From: a virus
DNA: 51,355 nt
Virus record (IMG/VR): IMGVR_UViG_3300024343_001092
Span: 1-51,355 of that record
Strand: one strand, 5' to 3'
Made by a program: the position numbers and the translations under genes. Below the pieces are notes generated by a model. It saw only the letters and a program-made list of their open reading frames with translations. It searched no databases and was not told the DNA's origin. Shown here piece after piece: positions 1,206-33,807 of the stretch (position 1 is its first letter; each line of letters starts with the position of its first letter).

Positions 1206-1859
1206 ATGTCTAATAAGTCTATTGACGCCTGGCAAATTCTCAGAATACAGGGCGAGTTTACTCGAGCGTTCGATGAACTATCTGATTTAGACCGTCCTTG
1301 TATCGCCGTTTTCGGTTCAGCAAGAACTCCTAAAGATGATAAATTCTATCAAGAAGGCTTGGTCGTTGGAAAACAACTAGTCGAAGCTGGATTTGGAGTA
1401 ATAACCGGCGGTGGACCAGGAGTTATGGAAGCCGTAAACGAAGGAGCTAAAGAGGGTTTATCGATCGGATTAGGAATTGAATTACCATTTGAGGCAAGCA
1501 TGAATCCCTATGTCAATAAGGGTATAACATGTAGATACTTCTTTACCCGAAAAGTTTCACTTATAAAATACTCACAAGGATTTATCGTTTTTCCTGGAGG
1601 TCTAGGAACACTTGATGAGTTATTTGAAGCTCTTACACTTGCTCAAACTGGACACTCTCCTAAGTTTCCTATTATATTAGTAGGAAAAGATTACTGGAGC
1701 GGTCTATATAAATGGTTAATAGATACCGTGTTTATTAATGGTAAAATGTCTAATGATGATTTTGAACTATTCAGAATCGTCGACACTGGAGAAGAGGCAG
1801 TACAGAAGATTATCGAGCACAATGCAAAATATCGTCCTGATTCGAATACGAATTTTTAA
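1206..1859 (+). CDS. LOG-family protein (phosphoribohydrolase-like)
   Basis: This 217-residue protein has the two signature motifs of the LOG / TIGR00730 family: GGGPGVMEA at residues 68-76 and PGGLGTLDE at 130-138. An Arg-Lys pair (R115, K116) lies before the second motif, where the family places a catalytic Arg. Known members hydrolyse cytokinin riboside 5'-monophosphate or related nucleoside monophosphates to the free base and ribose 5-phosphate; others are annotated lysine decarboxylase by historical error. The length fits the family. In a phage it might act on nucleotides, which would agree with the pyrimidine enzymes at 3935 and 33808, but the substrate is not visible. Confidence 0.85.
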   Translation: MSNKSIDAWQILRIQGEFTRAFDELSDLDRPCIAVFGSARTPKDDKFYQEGLVVGKQLVEAGFGVITGGGPGVMEAVNEGAKEGLSIGLGIELPFEASMNPYVNKGITCRYFFTRKVSLIKYSQGFIVFPGGLGTLDELFEALTLAQTGHSPKFPIILVGKDYWSGLYKWLIDTVFINGKMSNDDFELFRIVDTGEEAVQKIIEHNAKYRPDSNTNF

Positions 1860-1863
1860 TTAA

Positions 1864-1871
1864 ATAAATAT
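1864..1871 (+). promoter_or_regulatory. Candidate late promoter (ATAAATAT)
   Basis: ATAAATAT lies 18 bases before the ATG of the ClpC-like gene. It resembles the T4 late promoter core TATAAATA and matches similar boxes before other genes here, for example 10516 and 43733. No -35 element is evident. Confidence 0.4.
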
Positions 1872-1889
1872 AGTAATAATACAATAGAC

Positions 1890-3908
1890 ATGATGGATAA
1901 TATAGAAGATATAAATAGTACAGGGACTAGTCCCAAAAAAGGTGGAAAAGGTAGAACTCCATTCCTAGATCAATTTGGAGAAGATTTAACACAGTTAGCA
2001 GCTGAAGGTAAATTAGATCCAATTATTGGTAGAGAAAAAGAAGTTCATCGAGTTTGCCAAATTCTTTCTCGTCGAAAGAAAAATAATCCAATTATCCTAG
2101 GAGATCCAGGAGTTGGTAAAACTGCAATCGTTGAAGCAATTGCTCAGCGCATAGTCGAAAAGAAAGTTGCGCGTACCCTATTAAATAAGAAAATTATCTC
2201 TCTTAACCTAACCACAATTGTAGCCGGTACCAAATATCGTGGAGAGTTTGAAGAGAGAATGAAAATGATTGTTGAAGAACTTAAGTCAAATCAGGACGTT
2301 ATTGTATTCATTGATGAGATTCATACTTTGATCGGCGCTGGAGGTTCTTCTGGATCTTTAGATGCTTCTAATATTCTAAAACCTGCTCTTGCACGAGGAC
2401 AAGTTCATTGTATTGGCGCTACAACAACCGACGAATACAGAGAACATATTGAAGAGGATGGAGCTCTAACTCGTCGTTTTCAAGAAGTTTTCATTGATCC
2501 ACCTTCAATAGACGAAGCAATTGAAATCTTAAACAAGATTAAAGAGAAATACGAAGATCACCATTCGGTAACTTATACACCTGAAGCTATTGAAGCTTGC
2601 GTAAAGTTATCTGAAAGATATATCACACAACGAGAATTACCAGACAAGGCTATTGATATAATGGACGAAGTTGGTTCTAAAATACATTTGCTAGAAATTA
2701 ACGTTCCTCCTTATGTTAAAAAGATGGAAGATGAAGCTGATGAATTTGGAAAACAAAAACACGAAGCTGTTAGTAAACAAGATTATGAAGCAGCTGCAAA
2801 TTTTAGAGATGCTGAACTTGGTAAAAGAAAAGAAATCGAGGCTAAATTAAAAGATTGGGAAAAGAGTTTACGAGATAAACGTAGACGTGTTACTGATCAA
2901 GATGTTGCCGGGACAATTGCTGAAATTACTGGAATTCCGGTAACTCGTCTAAGTGGAGATGAGAGTAAGATGATTGTAGGAATGAATAAAGAATTAAATA
3001 AAATTATAATTGGTCAGAGTGGAGCGGTAGATTCTTTATGTAGAGTTATTAAGCGTTCTAGAACTGGAGTATCTTCAGCTAAGAAACCAATCGGTTCATT
3101 TATGTTTATTGGTCCAACTGGAGTTGGTAAAACTGAAACAGTAAAAGCACTTACCGAATATTATTTTGGTTCAGAAGATAATTTGATTAGAATTGATATG
3201 AGCGAATACTCTGAGAAATTTACAGTTTCTCGCCTAGTTGGAGCTCCTCCGGGATATGTTGGATACGAAGAAGGCGGTCAATTAACCGAGCAAGTTCGTA
3301 GAAAACCATATTCAGTAGTATTATTTGATGAGATTGAAAAAGCGCATCCAGATATTTTTAATACCCTATTGCAGGTTTTAGATGATGGTAGGTTAACTGA
3401 TTCTTTAGGTAGAACAATTGATTTTACAAATACAATTATCATTATGACTTCTAATATTGGTGCCCGTAAATTTGCTGAATTTGGAGTAGGTATTGGTTTT
3501 ACAGACGGCTCAATATCTAGTCAAAAGGCTAAAATGGAATCGGTGATCAGGAAAGAATTAAAGAACAAGTTCCCACCAGAATTCTTAAATAGATTAGATG
3601 ATATGATTTTATTTGAGCAATTATCTGAAGAATCTATTCTTAAGATTGTAGAACTTGAATTAGCAGAAGTTGCTGAAAGATTATTAGATCAGGGAATGAC
3701 TATTAAATTTACAAAATCAGCTAAATTATTCTTGGTTAAAGAAGGTTATGATATTGCATACGGAGCAAGACCAATTAAACGAGCTATCCAGCATTTTGTA
3801 GAAGACTTATTGGCAGATTCAATCATTGATAAGACAATAACTCCTTCAACAGAGTTCTTTTATACCGTCAATCACGAAAAAGATGCGATTAAACTTTCTT
3901 TGAAATAA
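1890..3908 (+). CDS. clpC: ClpC-type AAA+ protein unfoldase
   Basis: This 672-residue protein has two AAA+ modules. D1 has Walker A GDPGVGKT at 71-78, pore loop KYRGEF at 115-120 and Walker B IDEIH at 141-145. D2 has Walker A GPTGVGKT at 408-415, pore loop GYVGYEEGG at about 455-463 and Walker [12 protein letters not shown] at 476-486. A UVR-type helix pair at about 283-311 separates them, as in ClpC. An IGF tripeptide (535-537) sits where ClpA, ClpX and ClpC carry their ClpP-docking loop. The usual N-terminal double Clp-N domain is missing, so host adaptors that bind it may not work. A ClpP homologue lies at 5099, so a phage ClpCP protease is likely. The ATG at 1893 is an alternative start. 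Confidence 0.93.
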
Positions 3909-3934
3909 GTGTATAACCTTTATAATTAAAAACA

Positions 3935-4843
3935 ATGAGTAATTTTTCAAACACGTTTATCGATATAATCGAAGACATTAATAAAAACGGTTCGGAATCT
4001 CAGCCGAGAAGTTTAAAAGTTCGTGAATTAATATATGGTCAATACTCAGTAGATTCTATTCAGCCATTTGCATCATTTAAAGACAGAGCTTTTAACTGGA
4101 AATATTTTGCTGGAGAAGTAGCATGGTATCTTAAAAAAGACTGTGATATCGATTACATTAATAAGTTCTCTAATTTCTGGAAAGGTATTACAAATCCTGG
4201 TACAAATGAAATTAATTCAAACTACGGAGCCTTATTATTCGGACCTCAACTTAAATGGTGCTTAGATAGTTTAAAAGCTGACATAAATACTCGTCAAGCA
4301 ATTGCATTCTTGAATCAGCCAAAATATCAATTTGAAGGTAATAAAGATTTTGTTTGTACAATGTACCTTAACTTTTTTATTAGAGATAATAAATTGAATA
4401 TGAAAGTTCAAATGCGATCTAACGATATTTTCTATGGTCTTACATTTGACGCTCCTTTCTTTGCAGTGGTACATCAACACATGCTTCTTTGGTTAAAAGA
4501 AACATATCCAACTTTAGAGATTGGAGAGTATGTTCATTTTGCCGATAATATCCATTATTACGAAAGACATTTTGAATTGTCTGATCAGATTTTAGAAAAT
4601 GGAAAAGCAGATAAGCAATATTCCATGGAGCTTACAAAACCATTATTCTACGTCGATGATTTTAATAATTTTACACTAACTGAAATTGGTAACGATTACA
4701 TTGACGAAATCGATGCGATCTCTACCAATGAAAATTCTAAAAATATAGAATATCTAGCCGTTTTATCTAAATACTTAAACGTAACCATTAATGAAAAAAG
4801 TACCAATAATAAAGATAATGCTAGGGCGGAATCATTCCAATAA
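3935..4843 (+). CDS. Thymidylate-synthase-fold enzyme, probable dCMP (hydroxy)methylase
   Basis: The 302-residue protein has the thymidylate synthase superfamily order: EVAWYLKKDCDI (catalytic-type Glu61), FWKGI, NYGALLFG, DINTRQAI (Arg120), Cys141 in DFVCTMYLNFFIR, MRSND (160-164), and HFADNIHYY with His207 and Tyr209. The enzyme transfers a one-carbon unit from methylene-tetrahydrofolate to C5 of a pyrimidine nucleotide. In thymidylate synthase an Asn after the GLPF motif selects dUMP. Here the matching residue is Asp172 (GLTFDAPFF), as in T4 dCMP hydroxymethylase. I therefore infer dCMP as substrate, though some related dUMP enzymes also vary here. The C-terminal tail of about 60 residues is unlike the canonical family. 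dCMP deaminase lies at 33808. Confidence 0.8.
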   Translation: MSNFSNTFIDIIEDINKNGSESQPRSLKVRELIYGQYSVDSIQPFASFKDRAFNWKYFAGEVAWYLKKDCDIDYINKFSNFWKGITNPGTNEINSNYGALLFGPQLKWCLDSLKADINTRQAIAFLNQPKYQFEGNKDFVCTMYLNFFIRDNKLNMKVQMRSNDIFYGLTFDAPFFAVVHQHMLLWLKETYPTLEIGEYVHFADNIHYYERHFELSDQILENGKADKQYSMELTKPLFYVDDFNNFTLTEIGNDYIDEIDAISTNENSKNIEYLAVLSKYLNVTINEKSTNNKDNARAESFQ

Positions 4844-5102
4844 GTTACTTAGTAATTATCTCGAAAGAGAAGGAGAAGACACGCTAAATAGACAAATAGT
4901 CTCGCATGTTTTAAACACATTAGATGGTACAATTAAGCATAATATATTATGTCAGTTCGAAGACGATAACGGAAGTAAATACGATATTAGTTTAGAAAAA
5001 GAAAACTGGAAAAAATCATTAAACAAAGCACACGCCTATTTTTTAGAAATAGAAGAATACGAAACTTGTAAAATTATTAAAGAAATACTAGAACAATTAT
5101 GA
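4818..5102 (+). CDS. Small EEYEKC-family protein (copy 1)
   Basis: A start at 4818 gives 94 residues and a 26-base overlap with the previous gene; ATG 4791 is possible but overlaps more. The function is not known. The last 23 residues (YFLEIEEYETCKIIKEIL and flanks) share a pattern with proteins at 25246, 26541 and 27062: a hydrophobic helix, aromatic-Phe, then EEYE(K/T)C and another amphipathic helix. The pattern faintly resembles the UVR helix of ClpC and UvrB. The stop overlaps the ClpP start (TTATGA), so the two are translationally coupled. An adaptor role for the Clp machine is a guess based on that position. Confidence 0.65.
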   Translation: MLGRNHSNKLLSNYLEREGEDTLNRQIVSHVLNTLDGTIKHNILCQFEDDNGSKYDISLEKENWKKSLNKAHAYFLEIEEYETCKIIKEILEQL

Positions 5103-5782
5103 ATTACTACAGCAAAGACAAAGAATTTAATAGATATGCCAAATCTGAGCATAACATCTCATCTTTAAAATTAGATTACTACGGTAAACAGGTTCAAGGA
5201 TCTTTGACACCGTATATTCTAGAAGAGAGAGAATTAAGAGTTAGTCAAATGGACATTTTCTCTAGATTAATGATGGATCGATTATTATGGGTAGCTGGAG
5301 AAGTTAACGATAATATGTCAACCATCGTACAGGCTCAGTTGATGTTTCTGGATTCAGTAAACAACGACGATATTACAATGCATATTGATTCTGGTGGTGG
5401 AAGCTGTAAATCCGGATTATCAATGGTGGATGTAATGGATTACATTAAGAGCGATATCAAAACCGTAAACACTGGAATGGCCGCTTCAATGGGATCAATC
5501 TTATTAGGAGCTGGTACTAAAGGTAAAAGGTCTTCTTTAAGATTCAGTACAACAATGCTACACCAATCTTCTGGAGGTTTCAGTGGAAATATTCAAGATG
5601 CTGCAATTGACTGGAAAGAATGGATCAAAGTAAACGATGTATTATTTGGTTTACTAGGAGAATATTGCGGTAAAGATCCAGAACAAGTTAAAAAAGATGC
5701 CGAAAGAGATTTATGGTTAGATGCTAATCAGGCTTTAGAATATGGTATTATCGATTTTATTGTAAAAAATAATAAAAAATAA
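5099..5782 (+). CDS. clpP: ClpP-like serine peptidase
   Basis: This 227-residue protein carries the full ClpP catalytic triad: Ser130 in GMAASMGSILL, His155 in TTMLHQSSGG and Asp204 in ERDLWLDANQALEYGIID. The HIDSGGGSCKSG segment (about 95-106) matches the oxyanion and substrate strand region. An N-terminal extension of about 40 residues precedes the usual start of the fold. ClpP forms a barrel that degrades proteins fed by Clp ATPases, and the ClpC-like gene is about 1.2 kb upstream. Some phages use ClpP-fold enzymes as prohead proteases. The usual T4-type protease is not in this window, so that alternative stays open. Confidence 0.9.
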   Translation: MNYYSKDKEFNRYAKSEHNISSLKLDYYGKQVQGSLTPYILEERELRVSQMDIFSRLMMDRLLWVAGEVNDNMSTIVQAQLMFLDSVNNDDITMHIDSGGGSCKSGLSMVDVMDYIKSDIKTVNTGMAASMGSILLGAGTKGKRSSLRFSTTMLHQSSGGFSGNIQDAAIDWKEWIKVNDVLFGLLGEYCGKDPEQVKKDAERDLWLDANQALEYGIIDFIVKNNKK

Positions 5783-5988
5783 TGAATGTACATATTTACA
5801 TCGAATCAGACAAAGTAGAGTACTTAAAAAGAATTCTTGATATTGTATGGTCTCTTGATTCAGATGAGCAAGACTCTATCACATATCAAAATATTCCTGC
5901 TAAAGGATGTGTTCAAGTATCTATGTCTTCAAATGAATTTATCGCCTTAACCGACCGAGGATTATTAAATGAAATTATCGAGCTATGA
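5782..5988 (+). CDS. Hypothetical 68-residue protein
   Basis: The ATG shares a base with the ClpP stop (TAATG), indicating coupled translation. The sequence alternates strands and helices (VHIYIESDKVEYLKRILDIV, then CVQVSMSSNEFIAL), suggesting a small alpha/beta fold. The 79-residue protein at 23822 has a similar start (LTIYIHHMLVDELFDFL) and may be a distant paralogue. I do not recognise the family. Confidence 0.6.
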   Translation: MNVHIYIESDKVEYLKRILDIVWSLDSDEQDSITYQNIPAKGCVQVSMSSNEFIALTDRGLLNEIIEL

Positions 5989-6299
5989 GCAGAGACAGAC
6001 AACGCAAACTTTTTATTGAATTAATCAATAAACAACTAGAACCATTCGGCAAAACTTACGAACAGGTTGTAGATATGCCAAATTGGTATATGAATTTTCA
6101 GACAACACCAGAAGAACAAAAGAAATTCACTGAATATTGTGTTACCAGAATTAGCAAAGAATTAGGATTAACTAAGAAACTGGCCGAAATGGAGGCTAGC
6201 TGGTTTATTCTGCAATGGGGATTAACTACATCATCTACCGAATATATTTCTCCTTCTAAAAAGAATTCTGAACCGGTTAAAATTAAGAAAAAGAATTAA
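5985..6299 (+). CDS. Conserved-looking phage hypothetical protein
   Basis: The 104-residue protein is mostly helical, with a basic start (SRDRQRKLF), a central MPNWYMNFQTTPEEQKKF segment and ASWFILQWGL near the end. This arrangement reminds me of uncharacterised proteins of large myophages, but I cannot name a family. It overlaps the previous gene by four bases (ATGA). Confidence 0.6.
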   Translation: MSRDRQRKLFIELINKQLEPFGKTYEQVVDMPNWYMNFQTTPEEQKKFTEYCVTRISKELGLTKKLAEMEASWFILQWGLTTSSTEYISPSKKNSEPVKIKKKN

Positions 6300-6330
6300 C
6301 ATTTACTAGCATCTCCGTGATACATACAAC

Positions 6331-7026
6331 ATGGAGATACTGGATGATGATTGGCTTACTTCACAACCAATAGATTACGAATTTAAGAAGTATAAGCTTC
6401 TTTCAGCGGCTAATAAATATCAGTCGTTAATAAAGGATGGTGACATCTTTCCTGTTCTAGATGAAGTTGAATTCCATCTAGACTATCTCTACAAATTCAA
6501 GTACAAAATCGACGAAATTACTTCTAGATTAAGAACTCTCAAGGGCATTGATATCGATACAATGTCTCTTCAATACGAATACAACAATGCGAACACTGAT
6601 GAAATTAATACTATAATAAGTATTTCCGAGGATGCAACGGTTTTCTTTGAAAAAATATACAAAGACATTCGAGCTAAATGGAGAGATACTGAAAAGTTTA
6701 TTAATTTTACTCAAATACCCGAGCAGAAGAGAGTCTATGTTAACGGGTATTTAATACTATGCACTAATGATAAGAAATACAGGATCTATAGTTTTATTAA
6801 ACCGGGTTCGATTTTAACAAATTGGAAAGATTTCAAATTTGAATTATTTAAAGATGAAGATGATTACTCTATCGAAAAAATATCTGATTTTGTAACCATA
6901 GTAGGCATAAACGAGCCTAGTAGAATACATATCAGAGCAGATATTAAGAAAGCTTTTCCTCTAGAAACATGCCTCTTACCAATTACTCGATATAAATTAT
7001 TCAATTATCTTAAAACTAACACTTGA
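6331..7026 (+). CDS. Hypothetical protein, 231 residues
   Basis: No family is recognised. The N-terminal half is helical with heptad-like spacing (about residues 35-110), and the C-terminal half is strand-rich and hydrophobic (RVYVNGYLILCT, SDFVTIVGI). No signal peptide is seen. The ATG region GGAGAT can pair with ATCTCC about 20 bases upstream, which might modulate initiation. It closes the ClpP operon ahead of the fibre genes. Confidence 0.6.
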   Translation: MEILDDDWLTSQPIDYEFKKYKLLSAANKYQSLIKDGDIFPVLDEVEFHLDYLYKFKYKIDEITSRLRTLKGIDIDTMSLQYEYNNANTDEINTIISISEDATVFFEKIYKDIRAKWRDTEKFINFTQIPEQKRVYVNGYLILCTNDKKYRIYSFIKPGSILTNWKDFKFELFKDEDDYSIEKISDFVTIVGINEPSRIHIRADIKKAFPLETCLLPITRYKLFNYLKTNT

Positions 7027-7041
7027 GTAGTTAGTATTCCA

Positions 7042-7050
7042 GATATATAA
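7042..7050 (+). promoter_or_regulatory. Candidate late promoter (GATATATAA)
   Basis: GATATATAA lies about 28 bases before the ATG of the first fibre gene and belongs to the recurrent AATATATA-type boxes. It starts the structural region after a 52-base gap. Confidence 0.4.
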
Positions 7051-7078
7051 ACAAGATAAAAACAATAAACAGACAAAA

Positions 7079-8518
7079 ATGGCTTACTTTGCAAAAGATG
7101 ACATTCTAATATATTTAGAGCAAACAGTTGGTATTGGCCAAGGACTATCAACTAACGTAAAATTAACATTTTTTAAAGATTTCATAGGACAGCACCTAGA
7201 CGTAAGAAATTCAGGTTCTCTTAGAATATCTTTATTTAATGCTGCTGGAAAAAGATTATTAACATTCAGATATCCAGACGACCTAACAGCGTACGGTGGA
7301 GAACCAATTTCTGTTTCAACAAATCCTGCAACTAGAGGAGAAATCGAATTTACAATTTCACAATTTTATTCTAGTAGATTAGATGTAGGAGCAATATACG
7401 CCGAAGTTGTTTTTGTCGATACTGTAAATTATTATCCGACCACAAAAACATACGCGTTTGATCAATTTGCATTAGGTACAGTTGCAGCCACTGGAATTCC
7501 TTTATTACAGGAGGCAGTTGCTGGAGATTCATTAGTTTCTACATTCAATATTAGTTCTATCACTGGAGCAAACCCAACAGCTTCCGGTACTGCTTCAATA
7601 AATAGCAGCGCACCCCAAAGTGTAACAACGATAAAATTCAATAATCTTAACGAGAACAGTATTAGATTATCTTCATTAGAAAATTTCTTAACAAACAGAT
7701 TAGCTAAATGCGAAGGAATCATAACATTAATAAATACTCTAGCTCCAACTCAATATGCTGTTTACAAAATCATATCATGGAGTAGAATTAATTTAAACGG
7801 AAGTACTGATAGCGAATTCGGTGATGCGATACAAATTACATTAGAATTTGAAGCAGCTGCTAGCAGTCAAATATACGCTGCTTTGACATGGGCGATCGGT
7901 TCAAGAATATCTTACCAATTAGAAGCATTTGCCGATGTTGCCGATATCGAAACTTCTTTATCACACGTTCTTCTTTCGATTGATTCTTTAGAAACTACAA
8001 TTGGTGGAACTACATTGTCTTCTTCGGTTGATTCTTTAGAATCTCAACTCTCTTCTTTATCACATGTTCTTTCTTCGATTGATTCTTTAGAAACTACAAT
8101 TGGTGGAACTACATTATCTTCTTCAATCGATTCTTTAGAATCTCAACTATCTTCTCAATTGCTAGCAATATTTGCAAGCATAGATAATATCGAAAGTATT
8201 TCTCATCCAGTATCATTTACTGAAAGAAATAGAATTCCAATTACAACTTCTGGAAATAATGCATCTACTGGAATAACTTTGTCTAGACAACCTACAACCG
8301 CAACATTTATCGAAATTAATGTAAATGGATCGATTATAGATGTTAAAGACGGCACAGGAACTAATCAAAGTTGTTATTTCTCAGTCGATGGCGGATTAAC
8401 ACCAAAAACATACGCGCAATTATCAATTGGAGATACTCTATATTGGAATGGAATTTTAGCAGGCTATGATTTAGACGGATATGATAGAATAGACATGACA
8501 TATCAGGTAGAATCATAA
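7079..8518 (+). CDS. Tail fibre / adhesin-type structural protein with SxDSLET repeats
   Basis: The 479-residue protein has a strand-rich N-terminal domain (about 1-280), then helical repeats with SIDSLETTIGGTTL and SVDSLESQLSS (about 300-365), and a C-terminal beta domain (about 375-479). The repeats have a 33-residue period and are typical of trimeric coiled-coil shafts. The same SVDSLET phrase fills the next gene, so the two probably belong to one fibre assembly. The order suggests a proximal or connector fibre subunit. The role is inferred from repeat structure and neighbours, not a recognised family. Confidence 0.7.
   Translation: MAYFAKDDILIYLEQTVGIGQGLSTNVKLTFFKDFIGQHLDVRNSGSLRISLFNAAGKRLLTFRYPDDLTAYGGEPISVSTNPATRGEIEFTISQFYSSRLDVGAIYAEVVFVDTVNYYPTTKTYAFDQFALGTVAATGIPLLQEAVAGDSLVSTFNISSITGANPTASGTASINSSAPQSVTTIKFNNLNENSIRLSSLENFLTNRLAKCEGIITLINTLAPTQYAVYKIISWSRINLNGSTDSEFGDAIQITLEFEAAASSQIYAALTWAIGSRISYQLEAFADVADIETSLSHVLLSIDSLETTIGGTTLSSSVDSLESQLSSLSHVLSSIDSLETTIGGTTLSSSIDSLESQLSSQLLAIFASIDNIESISHPVSFTERNRIPITTSGNNASTGITLSRQPTTATFIEINVNGSIIDVKDGTGTNQSCYFSVDGGLTPKTYAQLSIGDTLYWNGILAGYDLDGYDRIDMTYQVES
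7982..8150 (+). repeat. Tandem coding repeat, 99-base period
   Basis: The segment beginning GATTCTTTAGAAACTACAAT recurs 99 bases later (7982 and 8081). It encodes the SIDSLETTIGGTTL shaft repeat, and the two copies differ at a few silent or conservative positions. Confidence 0.75.
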
Positions 8519-8563
8519 TACATTTTAGTGCAAAATTATTACTATAATATTGAAGAATCTTCT

Positions 8564-8591
8564 AATATATAGGAGCTTTAATAATATATAA
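8564..8591 (+). promoter_or_regulatory. Two AATATATA-type boxes (candidate late promoter)
   Basis: AATATATAG (8564-8572) and AATATATAA (8583-8591) lie 47-66 bases before the fibre gene at 8639, inside a 120-base gap. The downstream box fits the spacing seen elsewhere better. Confidence 0.4.
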
Positions 8592-8638
8592 ATCATCCAG
8601 ATCAATTATGAACTGGGACCAAACAAATTTAAAAACAT

Positions 8639-10459
8639 ATGTCGCAATTAAGGTCAAAACAAATTTCTGATTTCTTAGCTACCGTAAACTGGGGTACGGT
8701 AACTAGTGCTCAGATTCCAAATGCATCTGCTGTAAACACCCGATTTACTGCAGCTGAAGCATCTGTTGACTCTATTGAAACTGTGCTAGCTGGTGTTGCA
8801 ACTGGTTCTAGCTTAACAGACTTGCAAAATTCAGTTGATTCTCTTGAATTAACCACATCCGCTGCAGGTTCTTCAATAGACTCTTTAGAGACGTTAGCTG
8901 GAACGCTAGCAACAAAAACATCGATTGATACTAGAGCTACGGCAATAGAATCTACCGACACCGCTCAAAATTTATCTATTGATTCATTAGAAACTTTAGC
9001 TGGAGCAGCCGCACCTAGAACTTCAACCGATACTAGATTTGCTAATTTAACAAATGATGTAACTTTTCTAGGATCTTCTGTTGATTCATTAGAAACAGCA
9101 CTATCTGGCGAAATCACAACTAGAGGTACTGCTGATACTTCATTAACTACTAGAATTTCTGCTGAAGAAGTAGCTAGAGCTAGTGCTGTTAGTGCTGTTG
9201 GAGCTTCAGTTGATTCATTAGAAGCTGTAGTTACTGCAATCAACACTGTTGATTCTTCTATTAACTCTTCTGTTGATTCATTAGAAACTGCATTAGGTGC
9301 TGAAATTACAACTAGAGGATCTGCTGATACTTCATTAGAAGCTAAAGTAACTTCAATCGATACGAGAGTATCTTCTGTTGATACTAGAGCTACTGCAATT
9401 GAATCAGTAAACACCTTACAAGGTACTGCAATTACTGCTGTTGAATCAGTAAACACTGCTCAAAATCTTTCTATCGATTCATTAGAAACTTTAGCTGGAA
9501 CTTTAGCAACATCTTCTTCAGTTGATACGAGAGTATCTACTGTTGAATCAGTAAACGTCGTACAAGGTACTGCAATTACTGCTGCTGAATCAGTAAACAC
9601 TGCTCAAAATCTTTCTATCGATTCTATCGAGACTGTTTTAGCTGGTGTTGCAACTGGTTCAAGTTTAACAGCTTTACAAAACTCAGTTGACTCATTAGAA
9701 ACAGCCCTATCTGGAGAAATCACAACTAGAGGAACTGCTGAGACTTCGTTAACTACTAGAATTTCTGGTGAAGAAACTGCTAGAGGTACTGCTGATACTT
9801 CATTAACTACTAGAATTTCTGCTGAAGAAGTAGCTAGAGCTTCTGTTGATACAGTAATTAACTCTTCTGTTGATTCATTAGAAACTGCACTATCTGGAGA
9901 AATTACAACTAGAGGATCTGCTGATACTTCATTAGCAACTTCTATCACTACTGAGAAAAACAGAATTGATGCTATCTTAGCCGCTGCTAGTGCAAGTGCT
10001 GACACATTCGTTGAGATCGTTTCATTAATTAACGCAGTAGACACAACTAACGATACTGCTTTTGCTACTTTCGTTTTACGTGCTGACGCATCAGTTGATT
10101 CATTAGAAACTGCTCTATCTGGCGAAATTACAACTAGAGGAACTGCAGATACATCACTAGAAACTAGAGTATCAACAGTTGAAGCAACTATCGCTTCAAT
10201 CGATACTAACTATGTAGCTGACGCTGATCTAATCTCTGAAAACTACACAATGGCTGGATTTGTTACTACTACAATTGGAGCTCCATTCAGTTTAGTATTA
10301 GTAAATAGTCCAGTAAATACTGCAAGTGTTCAATTATTCGTAAATGGTGTTAGGATTCCTGCACCGACTGGAATATCTGGAACCACTGTAACATTTGCCG
10401 GACTTCCTTATGTAATTGATTCATCTGATTCACTAGTGATTAATTACGTTAAAGCGTAA
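8639..10459 (+). CDS. Long coiled-coil tail fibre protein
   Basis: This 606-residue protein is mostly repeats of SVDSLETALSGEITTRGTADTSL type, interleaved with TRISAEE and AIESVNT segments (about 40-530). Low hydrophobicity with regular Leu and Val spacing indicates a long trimeric shaft. The N-terminus (MSQLRSKQISDFL) resembles the attachment peptide of the collagen-like fibre at 11801 ([13 protein letters not shown]). The C-terminal 80 residues form a beta-rich tip (FVTTTIGAPFSLVLVNSP) resembling small phage fibre tips. It is followed by a strong terminator. A chaperone or receptor domain is not obvious. Confidence 0.8.
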   Translation: MSQLRSKQISDFLATVNWGTVTSAQIPNASAVNTRFTAAEASVDSIETVLAGVATGSSLTDLQNSVDSLELTTSAAGSSIDSLETLAGTLATKTSIDTRATAIESTDTAQNLSIDSLETLAGAAAPRTSTDTRFANLTNDVTFLGSSVDSLETALSGEITTRGTADTSLTTRISAEEVARASAVSAVGASVDSLEAVVTAINTVDSSINSSVDSLETALGAEITTRGSADTSLEAKVTSIDTRVSSVDTRATAIESVNTLQGTAITAVESVNTAQNLSIDSLETLAGTLATSSSVDTRVSTVESVNVVQGTAITAAESVNTAQNLSIDSIETVLAGVATGSSLTALQNSVDSLETALSGEITTRGTAETSLTTRISGEETARGTADTSLTTRISAEEVARASVDTVINSSVDSLETALSGEITTRGSADTSLATSITTEKNRIDAILAAASASADTFVEIVSLINAVDTTNDTAFATFVLRADASVDSLETALSGEITTRGTADTSLETRVSTVEATIASIDTNYVADADLISENYTMAGFVTTTIGAPFSLVLVNSPVNTASVQLFVNGVRIPAPTGISGTTVTFAGLPYVIDSSDSLVINYVKA

Positions 10460-10483
10460 CTAGAATTATAATAACTTTAAACT

Positions 10484-10511
10484 AAAGAGAGCCGAAAGGC
10501 TCTCTTTTTTT
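10484..10511 (+). terminator. Rho-independent terminator
   Basis: AGAGAGCC / GGCTCTCT around a GAAA tetraloop is followed by a run of seven T. It closes the first fibre transcription unit, and a candidate late promoter follows at once. Confidence 0.92.
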
Positions 10512-10515
10512 ATGA

Positions 10516-10523
10516 ATAAATAT
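10516..10523 (+). promoter_or_regulatory. Candidate late promoter (ATAAATAT)
   Basis: ATAAATAT lies directly after the terminator and 22 bases before the ATG at 10546. Terminator followed by promoter is good positional support. Confidence 0.5.
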
Positions 10524-10545
10524 AACTAAATAATAGTAAATAAGA

Positions 10546-11724
10546 ATGGTTATTGGAATCACTTTGGGACTTCAGTCTGAACATGAAAGTGTTTGGGTTA
10601 ATGGAATTAAATTAAATGCTATCTTCTTGGCGAAGTGCCTAAAAAAGATAGGTAAACATGAAGTTATCATACTTGATACGAGCGACAAAGTAAAGGACCT
10701 GACCAAAGTTAATTGGGATCCTATTGAATTTCCAGTTAAAAGATATTGGGATGTTTGGAAAGATGTAGATATTTTAATCACATTAGGAACCAGTTTTCCA
10801 AAAGAAAACATGGACCAGTTCAAGGCATCTGGAAAGAATAAAAGGGTTATCAAATACATGTGTGGAAACAACTATGTAATTGATATGGAGAGAGCTATTT
10901 TTACAGAGGGTAAAGATATGGTCGCAACTTGGGATTTAGGAGCCGACGAAGTATGGTATGTACCCCAACAAGGTTATCAAAATCATTATTACTATAAAAC
11001 TATTTTTAGGTGTAATGCTATTCCTGTTCCATTCGTGTGGGATCCAATGTTCCTAGACCTAGATTATAAAGTTAGACAAAATCTTAGTAAAAACTTACCA
11101 AATTATATACCTCGCCCAGCAGAAGAAAAAAGAATTTCAGTCTTTGAACCGAATTTAAACACGGTTAAATATTCAATGATTCCTATTATGATCGCTGAAG
11201 AATCATACCGAGCTGGTGCAAAATTTGACAATATACAAATTGCGAGTGGAGAGAAACTACTGAAGAACGGCTACTATAAAACCATGATTAAGCAATTAGA
11301 TATTGTAAGCGAAGCCAAACCACCAAAAATTAAATTCACACCTAGATACCCAGTCTGTCACTACCTAGCTGAAGCAACTGATATTGTAATATCACATCAA
11401 TGGGAAAATCCATTGAACTACGCGTATCTAGATGTTCTCTATTATAACTTCCCGTTAATCCATAATGCTGATATGATACAAGATGCTGGATATTATTATC
11501 CTGATTTTAATATCGAAGTTGGATCTAATTTACTAAATTGGGTTCTGCGTCACCATGATGAGAATTTAGAGGAATACAATAGAAAAAATCAAGAGATTAT
11601 TAAGCGATATACCGTTGAAAACGATAAACTTGTCGAGACGTATGATAAGCTAATTAAAAATCTATACAAGAAGAACAGAAAATTAGATTGGAAATACGAC
11701 TGGAAGACAAATATTTCTGAATAG
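10546..11724 (+). CDS. DUF2827-like glycosyltransferase (GT-B type)
   Basis: The 392-residue protein matches the plan of the DUF2827 glycosyltransferase-like family: a first strand IGITLG, then ESVWVNGIKLNAIFLAKCL, a Rossmann-like half with ILITLG and YMCGNNYV, and a C-terminal half with EATDIVISHQWENPLNYAYLD, YNFPLIHN and a late helical tail. GT-B enzymes transfer sugar from an activated donor. It lies alone between two terminators directly before the collagen-like fibre. Decoration of that fibre is the simplest guess; donor and acceptor are unknown. Confidence 0.75.
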   Translation: MVIGITLGLQSEHESVWVNGIKLNAIFLAKCLKKIGKHEVIILDTSDKVKDLTKVNWDPIEFPVKRYWDVWKDVDILITLGTSFPKENMDQFKASGKNKRVIKYMCGNNYVIDMERAIFTEGKDMVATWDLGADEVWYVPQQGYQNHYYYKTIFRCNAIPVPFVWDPMFLDLDYKVRQNLSKNLPNYIPRPAEEKRISVFEPNLNTVKYSMIPIMIAEESYRAGAKFDNIQIASGEKLLKNGYYKTMIKQLDIVSEAKPPKIKFTPRYPVCHYLAEATDIVISHQWENPLNYAYLDVLYYNFPLIHNADMIQDAGYYYPDFNIEVGSNLLNWVLRHHDENLEEYNRKNQEIIKRYTVENDKLVETYDKLIKNLYKKNRKLDWKYDWKTNISE

Positions 11725-11743
11725 GACTTAGATTCCTATTTTT
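11720..11743 (+). terminator. Terminator overlapping the stop codon
   Basis: AATAGGA / TCCTATT with loop CTTAGAT is followed by TTT. The 5' arm includes the TAG stop of the glycosyltransferase gene. Confidence 0.65.
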
Positions 11744-11748
11744 AACTT

Positions 11749-11757
11749 AATATATAG
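11749..11757 (+). promoter_or_regulatory. Candidate late promoter (AATATATAG)
   Basis: AATATATAG follows the terminator and lies about 43 bases before the GTG start of the collagen-like fibre. The same nine bases occur at 17728, also right after a terminator. Confidence 0.45.
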
Positions 11758-11800
11758 AATAGATTCAACAATCTTATAAACTTAATCATATTTATAAAAC

Positions 11801-15769
<3,969 letters not shown>

Positions 15770-15770
15770 T

Positions 15771-16538
15771 ATGCAAGCAAGAATTGACTATTTAACTCAA
15801 TATAATGTTGCTCCCTTAGACAAGGTCAAGCAATCAAAATGTTATATCATTGATCCAAATTTAAATATTCTGCTTACACCACAGAATTATTACACGTGGA
15901 CTATGAATCCTTTCGATACTCCAGTACTTCAAGATACTGTAACTAGATTTGCTGATAATATTATTGGTAAAAAGGTATTAGTAATTGGACACAGTATTGG
16001 TATACTAAATTCTTTAATTAGAAATTTAGCACCAGCCGAGCATTGGATTATTGAATCTAGTGCGGATCAGAGAGGTCGAATGACTACTGCTGGATTTATT
16101 ACCGAAGGAACAACACATGTTATTGAAGATCGTTGGGAAGATTCAACCAGAGTTGAAGGCTTCCCTACTAATTTTGATTTTATATACTATAATGTCGGAT
16201 ATGATGCATTTCCAGAAGATTACAATGGTATTCTTGGTTTTGCTAATAACGTTAGTAAGTTTCTTAATACAGACGGAGTTTTTACTTGGTGGGGTTGTCA
16301 TAATTCTAAAGTTCAAATGAATATTATTGTTAATGAGGCTGATGAGGTTCCATGTTCAGTTGCGCGTGTATTATATGAAGATTATGGATTTACATATCAG
16401 ACTGACATAATCGATATCGATCCACAGGTAATTCCTGAAACTTATGATGCTCCACCAACTATAATATTTAATAAAGACAAATATTTAAATGGTTTTAAAT
16501 ATCAGCAAGCATGGATAAAAAATACTATTAACACGTAA
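15771..16538 (+). CDS. Methyltransferase-like Rossmann protein
   Basis: The 255-residue protein has a strand-turn-helix (KKVLVIGHSIGILNSLI, about residues 68-84) like motif I of SAM-dependent methyltransferases. An acidic strand end (HWIIESS) follows where the adenosine-binding acidic residue is expected, then FDFIYYNVGYDAF in the motif IV region and GVFTWWGCHN. The glycine motif is not perfect, so a non-methyltransferase Rossmann enzyme is possible. It starts two bases after the collagen-like fibre and is coupled by TAATG to the Hint-domain adhesin, so a fibre-related substrate is plausible. Confidence 0.5.
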   Translation: MQARIDYLTQYNVAPLDKVKQSKCYIIDPNLNILLTPQNYYTWTMNPFDTPVLQDTVTRFADNIIGKKVLVIGHSIGILNSLIRNLAPAEHWIIESSADQRGRMTTAGFITEGTTHVIEDRWEDSTRVEGFPTNFDFIYYNVGYDAFPEDYNGILGFANNVSKFLNTDGVFTWWGCHNSKVQMNIIVNEADEVPCSVARVLYEDYGFTYQTDIIDIDPQVIPETYDAPPTIIFNKDKYLNGFKYQQAWIKNTINT

Positions 16539-17653
16539 TGGGTAAATTAGTTTCAGTTGGAGGATATGCGCTTTCTACACTAAGATCGATTATAGAATGC
16601 GGAAATGGTGGATTTACAACAGCTTCTAGCATAAGAGGCAAGTTTGCTGGATACGCAGGTACCGGAAACATGGCATTCGCAACAAATAGTTGGATTAATA
16701 CCAGATGTTGGACGCTTGCTGTTGATGCTGGTGCTGGACAGGTTGCTGTAACTGCGCCTTGGTCAAGTGGATATACTGCAGGTTCTATTTATCCGCCACA
16801 GAACTTTGCGGTTACATCTAATAGTGATGTGTGGGTAACTTTAAATGCAATCGCCAATGCGAATTATGGATTTGCGTATTGGATGAGAACTGATCCATAC
16901 GAAATTTGGGCATACAACGCAAATGTTAGTTATTATGTACCAACTCCAGGTTGGGAAGATACTTACTATTTAGGAGCAGTGTTCAATTACGAGCCTCCTC
17001 CGCCACCGCCGGAGGAATGCTACGACTTTTATTTAGATGGATATGAGTACTGGTCCGGTACTAACTGTCAAGGAGGTAATGTGAGCGGCTACTCATACGG
17101 CGAGTATAGGTGTTTACAGTCATTGTTCTACGGTGGGACTCAAACTGGTGCAAGTTGTCAACAAGGATGTCCGGTTAAAGGAACTAGTATTGAAATGGCC
17201 GACGGAACCTTTAAGTTAATTGAAAAAATCAGAATTGGAGACCTTTTAAAAGGCATGAAAATCAGCGATGCGCCCGAAGACGATACAATTGTTGGATGGT
17301 CAACTGATACTTTAAACCTGGTAGAAACTGAAGTTAAAGTAGTTGGTATCCGTCCTCTTAGATCTCAAAGAATTCATAACTTTAATAACGGTTTAATTGA
17401 AACTTCTGAATCGCATGCTCATTTTATTAAAAGAGGAAATGATTGGTTTTTTGAACAATCAAAGAATATTCAAGTTGGAGATTTCCTAGTTGACAAGGAT
17501 GGAAGCAGTATTGAAATAACTTCAATTGATGTTTTACAAGGAGAAGACGCAAAGATTGTATATTCAATGGACGTTGAAAATACCGATACTTATATTGCGA
17601 ATGGTTTAATTACGCATAATCCTGCTGAAAAATTACCTGGATTCGAATCTTAA
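16538..17653 (+). CDS. Adhesin-like protein with C-terminal Hint (intein-like) domain
   Basis: Residues 1-150 of this 371-residue protein are a beta-rich, aromatic domain like tail adhesins. A PPPPPP linker (153-158) and a cysteine-rich section follow. Residues 211-361 form a Hint domain: Cys211 opens block A (CPVKGTSIEMADG), IRIGD follows, block B is ETSESHAHF with His293, then IQVGDFLV, and block F/G is VYSMDVENTDTYIANG ending LITHN (His360-Asn361). The next residue is Pro, not Cys, Ser or Thr, and only ten residues remain. Normal intein splicing is thus unlikely; it resembles bacterial intein-like (BIL) domains that cleave or form adducts at the N-terminal Cys. It starts by TAATG overlap and ends before two terminators. 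Confidence 0.85.
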   Translation: MGKLVSVGGYALSTLRSIIECGNGGFTTASSIRGKFAGYAGTGNMAFATNSWINTRCWTLAVDAGAGQVAVTAPWSSGYTAGSIYPPQNFAVTSNSDVWVTLNAIANANYGFAYWMRTDPYEIWAYNANVSYYVPTPGWEDTYYLGAVFNYEPPPPPPEECYDFYLDGYEYWSGTNCQGGNVSGYSYGEYRCLQSLFYGGTQTGASCQQGCPVKGTSIEMADGTFKLIEKIRIGDLLKGMKISDAPEDDTIVGWSTDTLNLVETEVKVVGIRPLRSQRIHNFNNGLIETSESHAHFIKRGNDWFFEQSKNIQVGDFLVDKDGSSIEITSIDVLQGEDAKIVYSMDVENTDTYIANGLITHNPAEKLPGFES

Positions 17654-17661
17654 TAAACAGT

Positions 17662-17702
17662 ACCCGAGTAGCATACCATTAGAACTGCTCTCGGGTCGTT
17701 TT
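17662..17702 (+). terminator. Terminator hairpin 1
   Basis: ACCCGAG (17662-17668) pairs with CTCGGGT (17690-17696), with an inner AGCA/TGCT extension and CGTTTT after it. It lies just after the Hint-domain gene. Confidence 0.7.
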
Positions 17703-17703
17703 C

Positions 17704-17724
17704 AACCGGTACTTGCCGGTTTTT
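17704..17724 (+). terminator. Terminator hairpin 2
   Basis: AACCGG / CCGGTT with loop TACTTG, followed by TTT. It stands directly after hairpin 1, making a double terminator. Confidence 0.8.
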
Positions 17725-17727
17725 CTT

Positions 17728-17736
17728 AATATATAG
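17728..17736 (+). promoter_or_regulatory. Candidate late promoter (AATATATAG)
   Basis: AATATATAG directly follows the double terminator and lies 24 bases before the ATG at 17761. It is identical to the box at 11749. Confidence 0.5.
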
Positions 17737-17760
17737 AATGTAGTATAATAATATAAGATT

Positions 17761-18786
17761 ATGAAATTCTGTATCGCAACCCTTTCACATGACGCTCAGT
17801 ATCGAGCAGAGTATCTAGAAAGAACAATCTCTTCTTTCACAGACGCTAATCCTGATTTTGAAGGAGATTGGTACATATTCTTGAATTCATATAATGATGA
17901 ATTGTTAGAAGTGACTGAAAGATTATTTAATCAGTACTCTAATATCACGTGGCACCTAGAACTTTCTGAAAAGAATTTAGGAGTCGGCGCTGGAATTAAT
18001 CGACTTAATGAACTGGTCGAGAATTATGAATACGTTTTATTCTTAGAAGGAGATTGGACTTGTTTACCTCAGAAAATCAGCGGACTCTCACCAAACTGGA
18101 TAGATGAACTTGTTGAATGTATGGAAGATTCTGATTTAGACCAAATGGTTCTTCGTAGATACTTAAATGATACTGATGATCGTCAATTTGGGTATTCATA
18201 TTGGCTTAAAGAAGATATTCTACTAGAAGAGAAAAACTACAAATCAATTAACTATTGGATCCTATCAAAAAAGGAATATACTAACAATCCTGTTATTCGT
18301 CGAAACAAAAGATTTTACGAAACTGGAATCCTTCCACTCTCTGAATTCTTTGATGATAATGGAGATGCTGTTGAAATAAAGGGGAATCCTAATTGGGGTC
18401 GAGCTGAAATTGAAAAAGAGGCTGAAGGATTTCAACTCAAATCAGCGTTTATGAAATGGGGTACCTTTGTCCATGACGAACATTGGCCATTTAAACTAGA
18501 CTGGGATTCATATTACGATACTCTAAAACCATGCGGATTTAAAGGTTCAGAATTTGAATGTAAGTATGGTTACATTAAACTTGAACAATACTTCTGTGGA
18601 TGCTGTCCTAAAAATTGGAAGTTTACCGATCTCGAGAAACACAATCAATATTACGAGCAGGTAATTGTTGAACTTGTCGACAAGGGAGCATCAAAGGAAG
18701 AGATAATTAAAGGAATGATGGATATTGCCGATGGGCTCACAGTAAATCCCGATACATATATAAACTTCGATAAAAAGAGAAGATAA
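17761..18786 (+). CDS. GT-A type glycosyltransferase-like protein
   Basis: The 341-residue protein begins with a nucleotide-binding-like strand and loop (KFCIATLSHDAQYRAEYLER), then NLGVGAGINRLNEL and YVLFLEGDWT, where EGDW (96-99) sits in the place of the DxD metal motif. It resembles family 2 glycosyltransferases but departs from the classical DxD. The C-terminal part has a Cys cluster (YFCGCCPKNW). It is the first gene of a unit containing two more glycosyltransferases and two 2OG-oxygenase-like proteins. Confidence 0.65.
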   Translation: MKFCIATLSHDAQYRAEYLERTISSFTDANPDFEGDWYIFLNSYNDELLEVTERLFNQYSNITWHLELSEKNLGVGAGINRLNELVENYEYVLFLEGDWTCLPQKISGLSPNWIDELVECMEDSDLDQMVLRRYLNDTDDRQFGYSYWLKEDILLEEKNYKSINYWILSKKEYTNNPVIRRNKRFYETGILPLSEFFDDNGDAVEIKGNPNWGRAEIEKEAEGFQLKSAFMKWGTFVHDEHWPFKLDWDSYYDTLKPCGFKGSEFECKYGYIKLEQYFCGCCPKNWKFTDLEKHNQYYEQVIVELVDKGASKEEIIKGMMDIADGLTVNPDTYINFDKKRR

Positions 18787-18824
18787 ACTTAATCAATTAA
18801 TACGATATAATAACAAACACACTT

Positions 18825-19748
18825 ATGATTTACAACCATTTCACGAAAGACCAGAATGTTTTCTGGCACTTTGATTCAATTACAAAAGTATCAGATAATA
18901 ATTACAATGTAACAGGTTGGATAGCTGTCAAGGATGGTGATCTCTTTAAACCTGTTAGTTCATTGATAGTCAATGATATAGAAATACCATTAGAAGTTAT
19001 TAGTCGACCAGATGTTACCGAAATTTATCCTGGTAAAGATGATCAGGTTGGAGTTTCTTTTAATATTCCAAAAGGTGCAAATATCCAAGTTAACTTTGGA
19101 GAACTTACCTATAATCCAGGAAGCATTGACAATTTTATTGCTTATTACTCTGGATTCTGTAATGAAGACAAAGGATTAATCGTAGTTGATGACTTCTACG
19201 CGGATCCTGATTTTGTCAGAGATTTCGCAATGAGAAATCTAGAATACAACCCTTCTGATTATCATAAAGGTAAAAGAAGTAAAACACGTTTCGTTTTAGA
19301 TGGTACTAAAGAGAAATTAGAAAAGATAATTGGTCGTGAAATTACAAACTGGAATTATGAAAGTTATGCAAACGGAGTATTCCAATATTGCGTAGCAAAT
19401 GATCCATTAGTATTTCACGTTGATAGTCAAATGTATGCTGGAATGGTATTCTTAACTAAAGACGCTCCATTCGAAACAGGTACTTCGTTCTATTCTAGTA
19501 AAAATACTGGTCGAAAAAGATTCGATAATTTCGAAGACCAAGAAGCATACGAAACTACATTTAGAGGCAAGAATGCTGCAATGAATTTCTATGACTCGAC
19601 ACAATTTGAAAAAATTGATGAAGTTGGAAACGTATACAATCGTTTAGTTCTATTCGATGCTAAACAAATTCATGCTCCTAGTAAATATTTTGGAGATGCA
19701 ATTGAAAATGCTAGATTCTTTCACATGTTTTTCTTTGACGTAATATAA
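18825..19748 (+). CDS. DUF6445-like 2-oxoglutarate/Fe(II) oxygenase fold protein
   Basis: Residues 1-110 of this 307-residue protein are a small beta domain. Residues about 117-307 follow the DUF6445 pattern: GLIVVDDFYADPDFVRDFAM, then FHVDSQMYAGMVFL and FDAKQIHAPSKYFG. His198, Asp200 and His283 form a candidate HxD...H iron site within a double-stranded beta-helix. The substrate is unknown. It sits between two glycosyltransferases and is one of two oxygenase-like genes in this unit; see 22260. Confidence 0.7.
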   Translation: MIYNHFTKDQNVFWHFDSITKVSDNNYNVTGWIAVKDGDLFKPVSSLIVNDIEIPLEVISRPDVTEIYPGKDDQVGVSFNIPKGANIQVNFGELTYNPGSIDNFIAYYSGFCNEDKGLIVVDDFYADPDFVRDFAMRNLEYNPSDYHKGKRSKTRFVLDGTKEKLEKIIGREITNWNYESYANGVFQYCVANDPLVFHVDSQMYAGMVFLTKDAPFETGTSFYSSKNTGRKRFDNFEDQEAYETTFRGKNAAMNFYDSTQFEKIDEVGNVYNRLVLFDAKQIHAPSKYFGDAIENARFFHMFFFDVI

Positions 19749-19752
19749 TAAT

Positions 19753-21597
19753 ATGATAGACAATTCCCGAAAGCTACACGTAATTACAAGATGTAGCAGA
19801 TTAAATAACATCCTTGCCGTTGGAGAATCTCTTCCGGCTAAAGATGGTAAATTACAAGTTGAATGGCATGTAATTTTTGATTCGACTAGATTAAAGGATA
19901 TCGATGCTGAAATTCTTGGTAAATTACAACAATTTGGAGCCAAGATTTATTTTGAATTCTCTCAAGGCGGAGATTACCTATATCCTCAAATGAATAAAGT
20001 TATCATTGATAACATATCAGATGGTTGGATCTATTCGCTAGACGATGACAATATTCTACATGAAAAGTTATTCGATAATTTTGAAGCTCTTGTGGGATTT
20101 GCCGAAGCAGAAAAATCGATTGGAATAGTTTTTAATCAACAAGTAGACGGTAAAGATTTTACTGGATGCGATGTTAGATATGCTAAACCTGAGAATATGA
20201 AAGTTAGGTCAATTGACTTGGCCCAGTTTATTCTTAATCGATCAGTTTTTAATGACTTTGATTTTAAAGGTGGTTATGATGCTGATGGTAAATTTATTGA
20301 AGTTGTTTATCAAAAGAACCCAGACGGATTCTTATTCATAGACAAGATTTTAGCTTATTACAACGCGCTACAAAAACCTTCAAAGGCTAAATTCCCAAAA
20401 ATACTCTATATTGGCAAGGATCGTCCAGATTTAAAAACAAATAACTTTGTAAATTGGGAATCTAAAGAACTTGAAGTCGAATATATCGAAGACGATTCTA
20501 ATATTTATGCTGATATCGCAAGGGTAAAACCAATTGCAATTGTTAGTACCTATGAAGATCCATCTCAACTACAAAATTTATGGAATGCACCTGGTGAATT
20601 TCGTAAAATATGGATTAATTTAATTGAAGGAGACGTAGATGCTGGCGAAAAGGGTTATCATTGCGCAATGAGTGCTATGTTAGTAAACGATGTTAGTAAA
20701 CTCATTTCTTATTTTACTCCAATTTACAATACTGGAGAGAAACTATGGATGACTTACGAATCTCTTACTAGACAAACATATACCGATTGGGAATGGGTTC
20801 TTGTAAACGATTCGACTGACGGAGGAGCAACTATAAAGATTGCACAAGAAATTGCAAAAAGAGATCCTCGTGTTAAACTATTTGATTTTACACCGAAAAG
20901 TGGTGGTATAATTGGAGAAGTTAAATGGAGAGCAGCTACCATGTGTAGAGGTTATATTCTAGCCGAGTTAGACCATGATGATTATTTGGTGCCGACTTGT
21001 ACTGAAGATTTATTTAATGCTTCTCAAAAACACGAAGATGTAGGATTCTTTTATACTGACTCTGCTGAAATTGATCAAAACTGGAATTCACTAAAATATG
21101 GAGAAGGATTTGCATTTAGTTATGGACATTACGTTACAGAAAATGTAATGGGTAAAGATTTCGAAGTTGCAGTATCTTCTAACATTAATCCTAAAACGAT
21201 TAGACATATTGTTGGAGTTCCAAATCACGTTCGAGCATGGAGAAGAGAAACCTATTTCGAAATAGGCGGACACTGTAGAGACCTTGCAATCGCAGATGAT
21301 TATGAATTAATCGTTAGAACATTCTTGAAAACCAAGATGATGAGAATACCTCGATTAGGCTACCTTCAATTTATATATGATAATGGTAACACGACTAATT
21401 CTCATAACTTAGCAAGAGCAGATATTCAACGCCGAGTTAAAACAATCATGTGGCACTATAACGAGCAAATTAAATCTAGATTCGAAGAATTAGGACAGAA
21501 AGATTGGGCATACGAAGAGAATCCAAATGATCCGATTGGAACTCCTAGTAAATTTGGAGAAGACGAAGGATATGTAAACGAAATCTATCAATTATGA
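19753..21597 (+). CDS. Two-domain glycosyltransferase (two GT-A modules)
   Basis: This 614-residue protein carries two sugar-nucleotide modules. The N-terminal one (about 1-230) has HVITRCSRLNNI and SLDDDNI as the DxD motif. The C-terminal one (about 310-600) is a family 2 enzyme with SLTRQTYTDWEWVLVNDST, LDHDDYL as DxD and ADDYELIVR. A linker resembling a Rossmann half (about 215-300) lies between. Two active centres imply a polymerase or the sequential addition of two sugars. It overlaps the next glycosyltransferase by four bases (ATGA). Confidence 0.85.
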   Translation: MIDNSRKLHVITRCSRLNNILAVGESLPAKDGKLQVEWHVIFDSTRLKDIDAEILGKLQQFGAKIYFEFSQGGDYLYPQMNKVIIDNISDGWIYSLDDDNILHEKLFDNFEALVGFAEAEKSIGIVFNQQVDGKDFTGCDVRYAKPENMKVRSIDLAQFILNRSVFNDFDFKGGYDADGKFIEVVYQKNPDGFLFIDKILAYYNALQKPSKAKFPKILYIGKDRPDLKTNNFVNWESKELEVEYIEDDSNIYADIARVKPIAIVSTYEDPSQLQNLWNAPGEFRKIWINLIEGDVDAGEKGYHCAMSAMLVNDVSKLISYFTPIYNTGEKLWMTYESLTRQTYTDWEWVLVNDSTDGGATIKIAQEIAKRDPRVKLFDFTPKSGGIIGEVKWRAATMCRGYILAELDHDDYLVPTCTEDLFNASQKHEDVGFFYTDSAEIDQNWNSLKYGEGFAFSYGHYVTENVMGKDFEVAVSSNINPKTIRHIVGVPNHVRAWRRETYFEIGGHCRDLAIADDYELIVRTFLKTKMMRIPRLGYLQFIYDNGNTTNSHNLARADIQRRVKTIMWHYNEQIKSRFEELGQKDWAYEENPNDPIGTPSKFGEDEGYVNEIYQL

Positions 21598-22256: not shown

Positions 22257-22259
22257 CAT

Positions 22260-22859: not shown

Positions 22860-22876
22860 AATATAATATATAGAGT

Positions 22877-33800: not shown

Positions 33801-33807
33801 ATTTAAT

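Follow-up and report, generated by a model that had tools for sequence, protein, structure and literature searches.

The open reading frame at positions 3935-4843 (+) of the 51-kb viral fragment analysed here (the window; positions 1-51,355 of IMGVR_UViG_3300024343_001092) very likely encodes a T4-type dCMP hydroxymethylase, an activity predicted from its sequence. The DNA of this phage is predicted, with high probability, to contain modified cytosine, and we infer that the modified base is 5-hydroxymethylcytosine (5hmC). By likeness to known systems, such a modification may shield the phage DNA from bacterial defences and nucleases. The gene is described by the following entry:

3935-4843 (+), predicted T4-type dCMP hydroxymethylase, 302 residues (open reading frame, PF00303, PHROG 160, PDB match, residues, tree, fold model and Foldseek)

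The frame is open and its translation has a thymidylate synthase (TS) fold, includes MRSNDIFYGLTFDAPFF and carries the motifs RSND-IFYGLTFD-APFF. The protein matched the Pfam thymidylate synthase family (PF00303, E 3e-20) and PHROG 160 (E 3e-40), which is also the best family for T4 gp42. When compared by sequence with solved structures, its first three matches were T4 dCMP hydroxymethylase (E 2.4e-18) and every thymidylate synthase ranked lower, with an overall identity to T4 gp42 of only ~28%. The AlphaFold model was confident (mean pLDDT 91.6) and placed CMP and dCMP hydroxymethylases at the top of the Foldseek matches. MilA came first by E-value, and the target-normalised TM score was highest to the T4 enzyme (0.80), compared with ~0.6-0.72 for most TS entries among the matches listed. 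An identical protein is encoded on two further IMG/VR contigs. The next gene (4791-5102) begins within the reading frame of the enzyme. The C-terminal end of the enzyme extends further than that of most relatives and is poorly modelled.

The earlier note on this DNA had drawn attention to an Asp following GLTF, where thymidylate synthases have Asn, and to the retention of Cys141, Arg120 and His207. Asp172 is indeed seen after GLTF in the translation, the residue alignment sets it on T4 Asp179 and the other three residues were all found at the positions claimed. The codons with diagnostic value are:

4217-4225 (+), Ser95-Asn96-Tyr97, equivalent to T4 Ser94-Asn95-Tyr96, residues that hold the water and the base taking part in the reaction (residue panel; role from PMC6400193)
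4346-4348 (+), Asp138, equivalent to the water-activating T4 Asp145 (residue panel; role from PMC6400193)
4355-4360 (+), Cys141, the nucleophile, and Thr142, equivalent to T4 Thr149 and EcTS His147 (residue panel; EcTS position from PMC8670742)
4448-4450 (+), Asp172, equivalent to T4 Asp179, the cytosine-specific residue (T4 gp42 alignment; invariant in relatives)

Since Asp at T4-179 also occurs in Xp12-related phages and in proteins of the RB69/Thanatos type, we compared a panel of further sites, chosen as T4 positions with a known role in PMC6400193 (Glu60, Ser94, Tyr96, Asp145, Cys148 and Asp179). EcTS position 147 is additionally singled out in PMC8670742. The window enzyme has all of the T4 fold and active-site set (the Cys nucleophile, Glu60, Arg123, Ser169, Asp171, His216 and Tyr218), has the water-handling Ser94, Tyr96 and Asp145 as Ser95, Tyr97 and Asp138, and agrees with T4 gp42 at every discriminating site compared (Ser95, Tyr97, Asp138, Thr142 and Asp172). 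At T4 positions 94/145/149/179 the residues were:

Window enzyme: S/D/T/D
T4, 44RR, Xp15 and Effie: S/D/T/D
Canonical TS: P/L/H/N
Xp12 relatives AAT-1 and DLP4: A or S/N/P/D
SPO1-like dUMP hydroxymethylase: A/D/N/N
RB69 and Thanatos: T/E/T/D
AXL3, HTVC200P, PW916 and phage G: G/D/T/D

AAT-1 and DLP4 stand in for Xp12 as the 5-methyl-dCMP references. The residues taken for E. coli TS agree with those that the data give for canonical TS genes in the relatives. These four positions sort TS-fold genes into TS, 5-methyl-dC, 5hm-dU, RB69-type and 5hm-dC classes better than does the Asp alone. Asp at T4-179 is also found in the proteins of AXL3, HTVC200P, PW916 and phage G (L085, L117, L118 and L082), another TS-fold class, in which Gly-Ala-Tyr replaces Ser-Asn-Tyr.

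Conservation among relatives argues that Asp172 is not a chance substitution. Fifty loci from an IMG/VR scan plus the huge phage LR756500, ~41-100% identical to the window enzyme, all have Asp at T4-179 (51/51); both Asp codons are used (GAT in 44, GAC in 7), and in these same phages the canonical TS genes have retained Asn. Ser95, Tyr97, Asp138, Cys141, Thr142 and Asp172 were invariant in the alignment (n = 23). In a phylogeny with dCMP and dUMP hydroxymethylases, as had been suggested alongside the original observation, the window enzyme falls with T4 gp42, Xp15 and Effie in a clade split with full support (100/100) from TS, the Xp12 kin, the SPO1-like dUMP hydroxymethylases and the AXL3 types. 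T4 gp42 forms a long branch, leaving its exact place in this tree unsure. A 39% identical protein with Ser/Asp/Thr/Asp at the four diagnostic sites was also present on a contig assigned to a Lokiarchaeota MAG (L123:5001-5624), which is probably a misbinned phage contig. A megablast of window positions 5000-24000 against phage records gave no match.

The window is collinear with two larger relatives, G002 (256 kb) and G005 (236 kb), and the genes for dCTPase, DNA polymerase and TS, which lie outside the 51-kb fragment, were read from relatives. The hydroxymethylase gene was core to the near-complete genomes compared (4/4). Near-complete relatives encode a separate canonical TS (split across the record ends in G002) or ThyX, and the hydroxymethylase gene is thus not their thymidylate synthase. 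A T4 gp56-like dCTPase adjoins the DNA polymerase in G002, G005 and G015, and homologs were present in G002-G010, G014 and G015; a search of the more distant G019 and G020 gave no dCTPase homolog. A phmmer search for T4 gp1 (dNMP kinase) in G002, G005, G015 and G020 gave no homolog. dCMP deaminase genes occurred in 19/26 records as well as in the window, with T4 cd homologs at the matching place in G002 and G005. The accompanying genes in the window are:

1206-1859 (+), LOG-type (PF03641) putative nucleotide phosphoribohydrolase (PF03641 E 6.7e-30; same order in L146, L155, L167 and L179)
1890-3908 (+), ClpA/ClpC-like AAA+ protein, a conserved neighbour outside the chemistry (named by eye from sequence)
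5099-5782 (+), ClpP-like protease, a conserved neighbour outside the chemistry (named by eye from sequence)
33766-34323 (+), dCMP deaminase, 185 residues (PF00383 E 3.6e-22; phrog_174 E 2.4e-52)

The window arrangement at 1206-5782 (LOG, ClpA-like, hydroxymethylase, small gene, ClpP-like) recurs in L146, L155, L167 and L179, where LOG is followed by one or two additional genes. The LOG-type gene is conserved two genes upstream of the hydroxymethylase and lies near the dCTPase in many relatives; its product is possibly a nucleotide N-glycosidase in the same pathway. Elsewhere in the window, positions 11801-15769 encode a 1322-residue protein built of long collagen-like G-X-Y repeats; its C-terminus resembles a tail-fibre chaperone domain. 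The second half of the protein at 16538-17653, within the structural gene run, resembles a hedgehog/intein-type Hint domain.

The gene adjoining the dCTPase on the side opposite the DNA polymerase, a slot located outside the window, differs in content between genomes (exemplified in L131-L210, also L125:1997-3229, L128:1963-3000 and L126:8509-12054). In G003, whose enzyme is 69% identical, the slot holds a T4-type alpha-glucosyltransferase (AGT; PF11440 E 6e-18, phrog_2888 E 6e-77), and in the hydroxymethylase-bearing G010 it holds a T4-type beta-glucosyltransferase (BGT; PF09198 E 3e-10). LR756500 encodes a BGT 1.4 kb from its hydroxymethylase gene. Across 80 dCTPase contigs (52 distinct at 97%), T4-type glucosyltransferases were found in 23 (AGT 16, BGT 7), HMUDK_hel plus myo-inositol-1-phosphate synthase in 21 (one of them also with BGT) and a PLP-enzyme set in 25, six of which also had UDP-galactopyranose mutase and GT2. 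The rest had a 364-residue protein without assignment (7), GT2 alone (2) or unassigned content (3). T4-type glucosyltransferases act on 5hmC, and their occurrence in relatives therefore supports 5hmC as the product of the enzyme.

HMUDK_hel and the inositol-phosphate synthase occurred together in 21/21 contigs and never apart, usually with an FkbM methyltransferase. In L146, L147, L155, L167 and L179 this set, the dCTPase, a canonical TS and the Asp-type hydroxymethylase all lie within ~10-13 kb. No dUMP hydroxymethylase was found in the near-complete genomes with the HMUDK_hel set, which would leave cytosine and not uracil as the base on which the HMUDK_hel protein acts. On a speculative and rather unlikely reading, 5hmC would be a handle for swappable dCTPase-linked decorations and the HMUDK_hel set would attach an inositol-derived group to it. 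Inositol as the decoration is a guess read from gene content, and to our knowledge no inositol-derived DNA modification has been described. In L198 (7731-8768), the set has a T4-type BGT homolog (PF09198 just below cut-off) where the FkbM gene would otherwise be. The inositol-phosphate synthase of phage Ps15 proved no guide, as it sits among queuosine genes and no HMUDK_hel gene is annotated there. A carbamoyltransferase was discarded as a general decorator; only 1/26 records (G002) encoded one, which is only distantly related to the Xp15 type and lies among SGNH-like and sugar-related genes. The four GT2 glycosyltransferases of the window were likewise rejected as DNA glucosyltransferases, having no AGT or BGT match. 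Three of them lie in the same run as the collagen-like gene and others of structural appearance, and not one of the four is conserved across every near-complete relative.

A dCMP methylase as in Xp12, whose DNA contains 5-methylcytosine, would share the Asp-based cytosine specificity and yield 5-methyl-dCMP via hydride transfer rather than water addition. Asp at T4-179 is common to AAT-1 and DLP4, and an Asn-to-Asp change in TS yields a dCMP methylase, as cited in PMC8670742. We nevertheless regard this as very unlikely, because the Xp12-lineage mark (Asn at T4-145, Pro at T4-149) is replaced by Asp and Thr in the window enzyme, the Xp12 kin are placed elsewhere in the tree and methyl-dC offers no hydroxyl to the AGT and BGT of relatives. 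In T4, changing Asp145 to Asn (D145N) abolished hydroxymethylation activity (PMC6400193), so that Asn in the Xp12 kin and Asp in the window enzyme fit the two chemistries. The earlier note had proposed hydroxymethyl- or methyl-dCMP as the product. The cytosine specificity and the cytosine-modified genome that it envisaged are well supported. Of its two products hydroxymethyl is favoured by the retention of Asp138 and Ser95, the grouping with T4 gp42, Xp15 and Effie and the 5hmC-type glucosyltransferases of relatives, and methyl is disfavoured by the residues of the Xp12-related phages. It is highly improbable that the enzyme is a diverged TS or dUMP hydroxymethylase in which the Asp substitution is neutral. 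These enzymes do share its fold and Pfam family, and SPO1-like dUMP hydroxymethylases also have Asp at T4-145. However, the TS signature (Asn at EcTS-177, His at EcTS-147) is absent, with Asp172 and Thr142 in its place, the Asp is universal in the relatives and the near-complete ones carry TS or ThyX separately. At T4-179 SPO1-like enzymes and Molly carry Asn, the dUMP hydroxymethylase mark that the window enzyme lacks, and at T4-94 they carry Ala.

The case of Thanatos demonstrates that a gp42-like gene alone is no proof of 5hmC, as this phage has such a gene, a dCTPase and a dCMP deaminase, yet its sugar is reported to be linked directly to cytosine (PMC12838424). An enzyme of this RB69/Thanatos type, leading to sugar on 5-hydroxy rather than 5-hydroxymethyl cytosine, is nevertheless extremely unlikely here, given Thr94, Glu145, Ala82 and Asn171 in RB69/Thanatos versus Ser, Asp, Trp and Asp in both the window enzyme and T4. 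The chance that the enzyme is a CMP (ribonucleotide) hydroxymethylase like MilA, its top Foldseek match by E-value and one that shares the Asp (PMC5175136), appears very small. The ribose-pocket residues of MilA, Lys133 and Ala176, correspond to Arg120 and Ser162 in the window enzyme, as in deoxynucleotide enzymes, and the phage context includes dCTPase and dCMP deaminase.

For a T4-type dCMP hydroxymethylase, dCMP would be bound with Asp172 pairing to the cytosine, Arg120 to the phosphate and His207/Tyr209 plus Ser162 to the deoxyribose. Cys141 would then attack C6, methylene-tetrahydrofolate would supply the one-carbon unit (Glu61), and Asp138 would activate a water, held by Ser95/Tyr97, whose addition to the methylene intermediate would yield 5-hydroxymethyl-dCMP. 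The dCTPase seen in near-complete relatives would convert dCTP to dCMP, starving the polymerase of plain dCTP whilst supplying substrate, and dCMP deaminase would feed dUMP to the canonical TS, as in T4, with the separate TS or ThyX providing dTMP. 5hm-dCTP would be incorporated into phage DNA and, in relatives, the 5hmC is probably decorated further by the exchangeable genes adjoining the dCTPase.

The window system resembles that of T4 in the fold of the enzyme, in every catalytic and specificity residue tested and in having a dCMP deaminase, and its relatives resemble T4 in their separate TS, dCTPase and glucosyltransferases. It differs in that the enzyme has a C-terminal extension of ~55 residues, belongs to another phage group and is encoded between ClpA-like and ClpP-like genes. 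The gp42 of Aeromonas phage 44RR2.8t has the same full signature. Besides gp56, this phage encodes an HMUDK_hel fusion (Pfam HMUDK_hel score below cut-off) that shares 41% identity with the slot protein found in relatives. Unlike in the relatives, no inositol-phosphate synthase was seen near the fusion, and an SSF symporter gene adjoins it instead. This 795-residue protein (L213:6307-10287), beside an SSF sodium:solute symporter, is homologous to slot proteins of relatives, both the GDSL-like and the HMUDK_hel ones. The Xp15 and Effie enzymes are 35-36% identical, share the N-S-N-Y / D / T / D signature and form a sister lineage in the tree, but their phages have small siphovirus-size genomes with a carbamoyltransferase (a homolog of a tested 5hmC carbamoyltransferase) 2-3 genes away. 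The window group has no such clustering, only one distant NodU-like gene in G002. MilA is alike in structure and in using Asp for cytosine, and differs in its ribose-preferring residues. MetaGPA linked Asp at EcTS-177 to cytosine-modified phage contigs (available text of PMC8670742). The enzyme shares this Asp with the TS homologs described there and so belongs to an already known kind, whereas its lineage and the dCTPase-linked slot are not treated in that text. The swappable slot is thus more novel than the enzyme and provides a short list of candidate DNA-decorating enzymes, and together these data place T4-style cytosine replacement, as predicted here, in a group of large phages that is widespread and uncultured.
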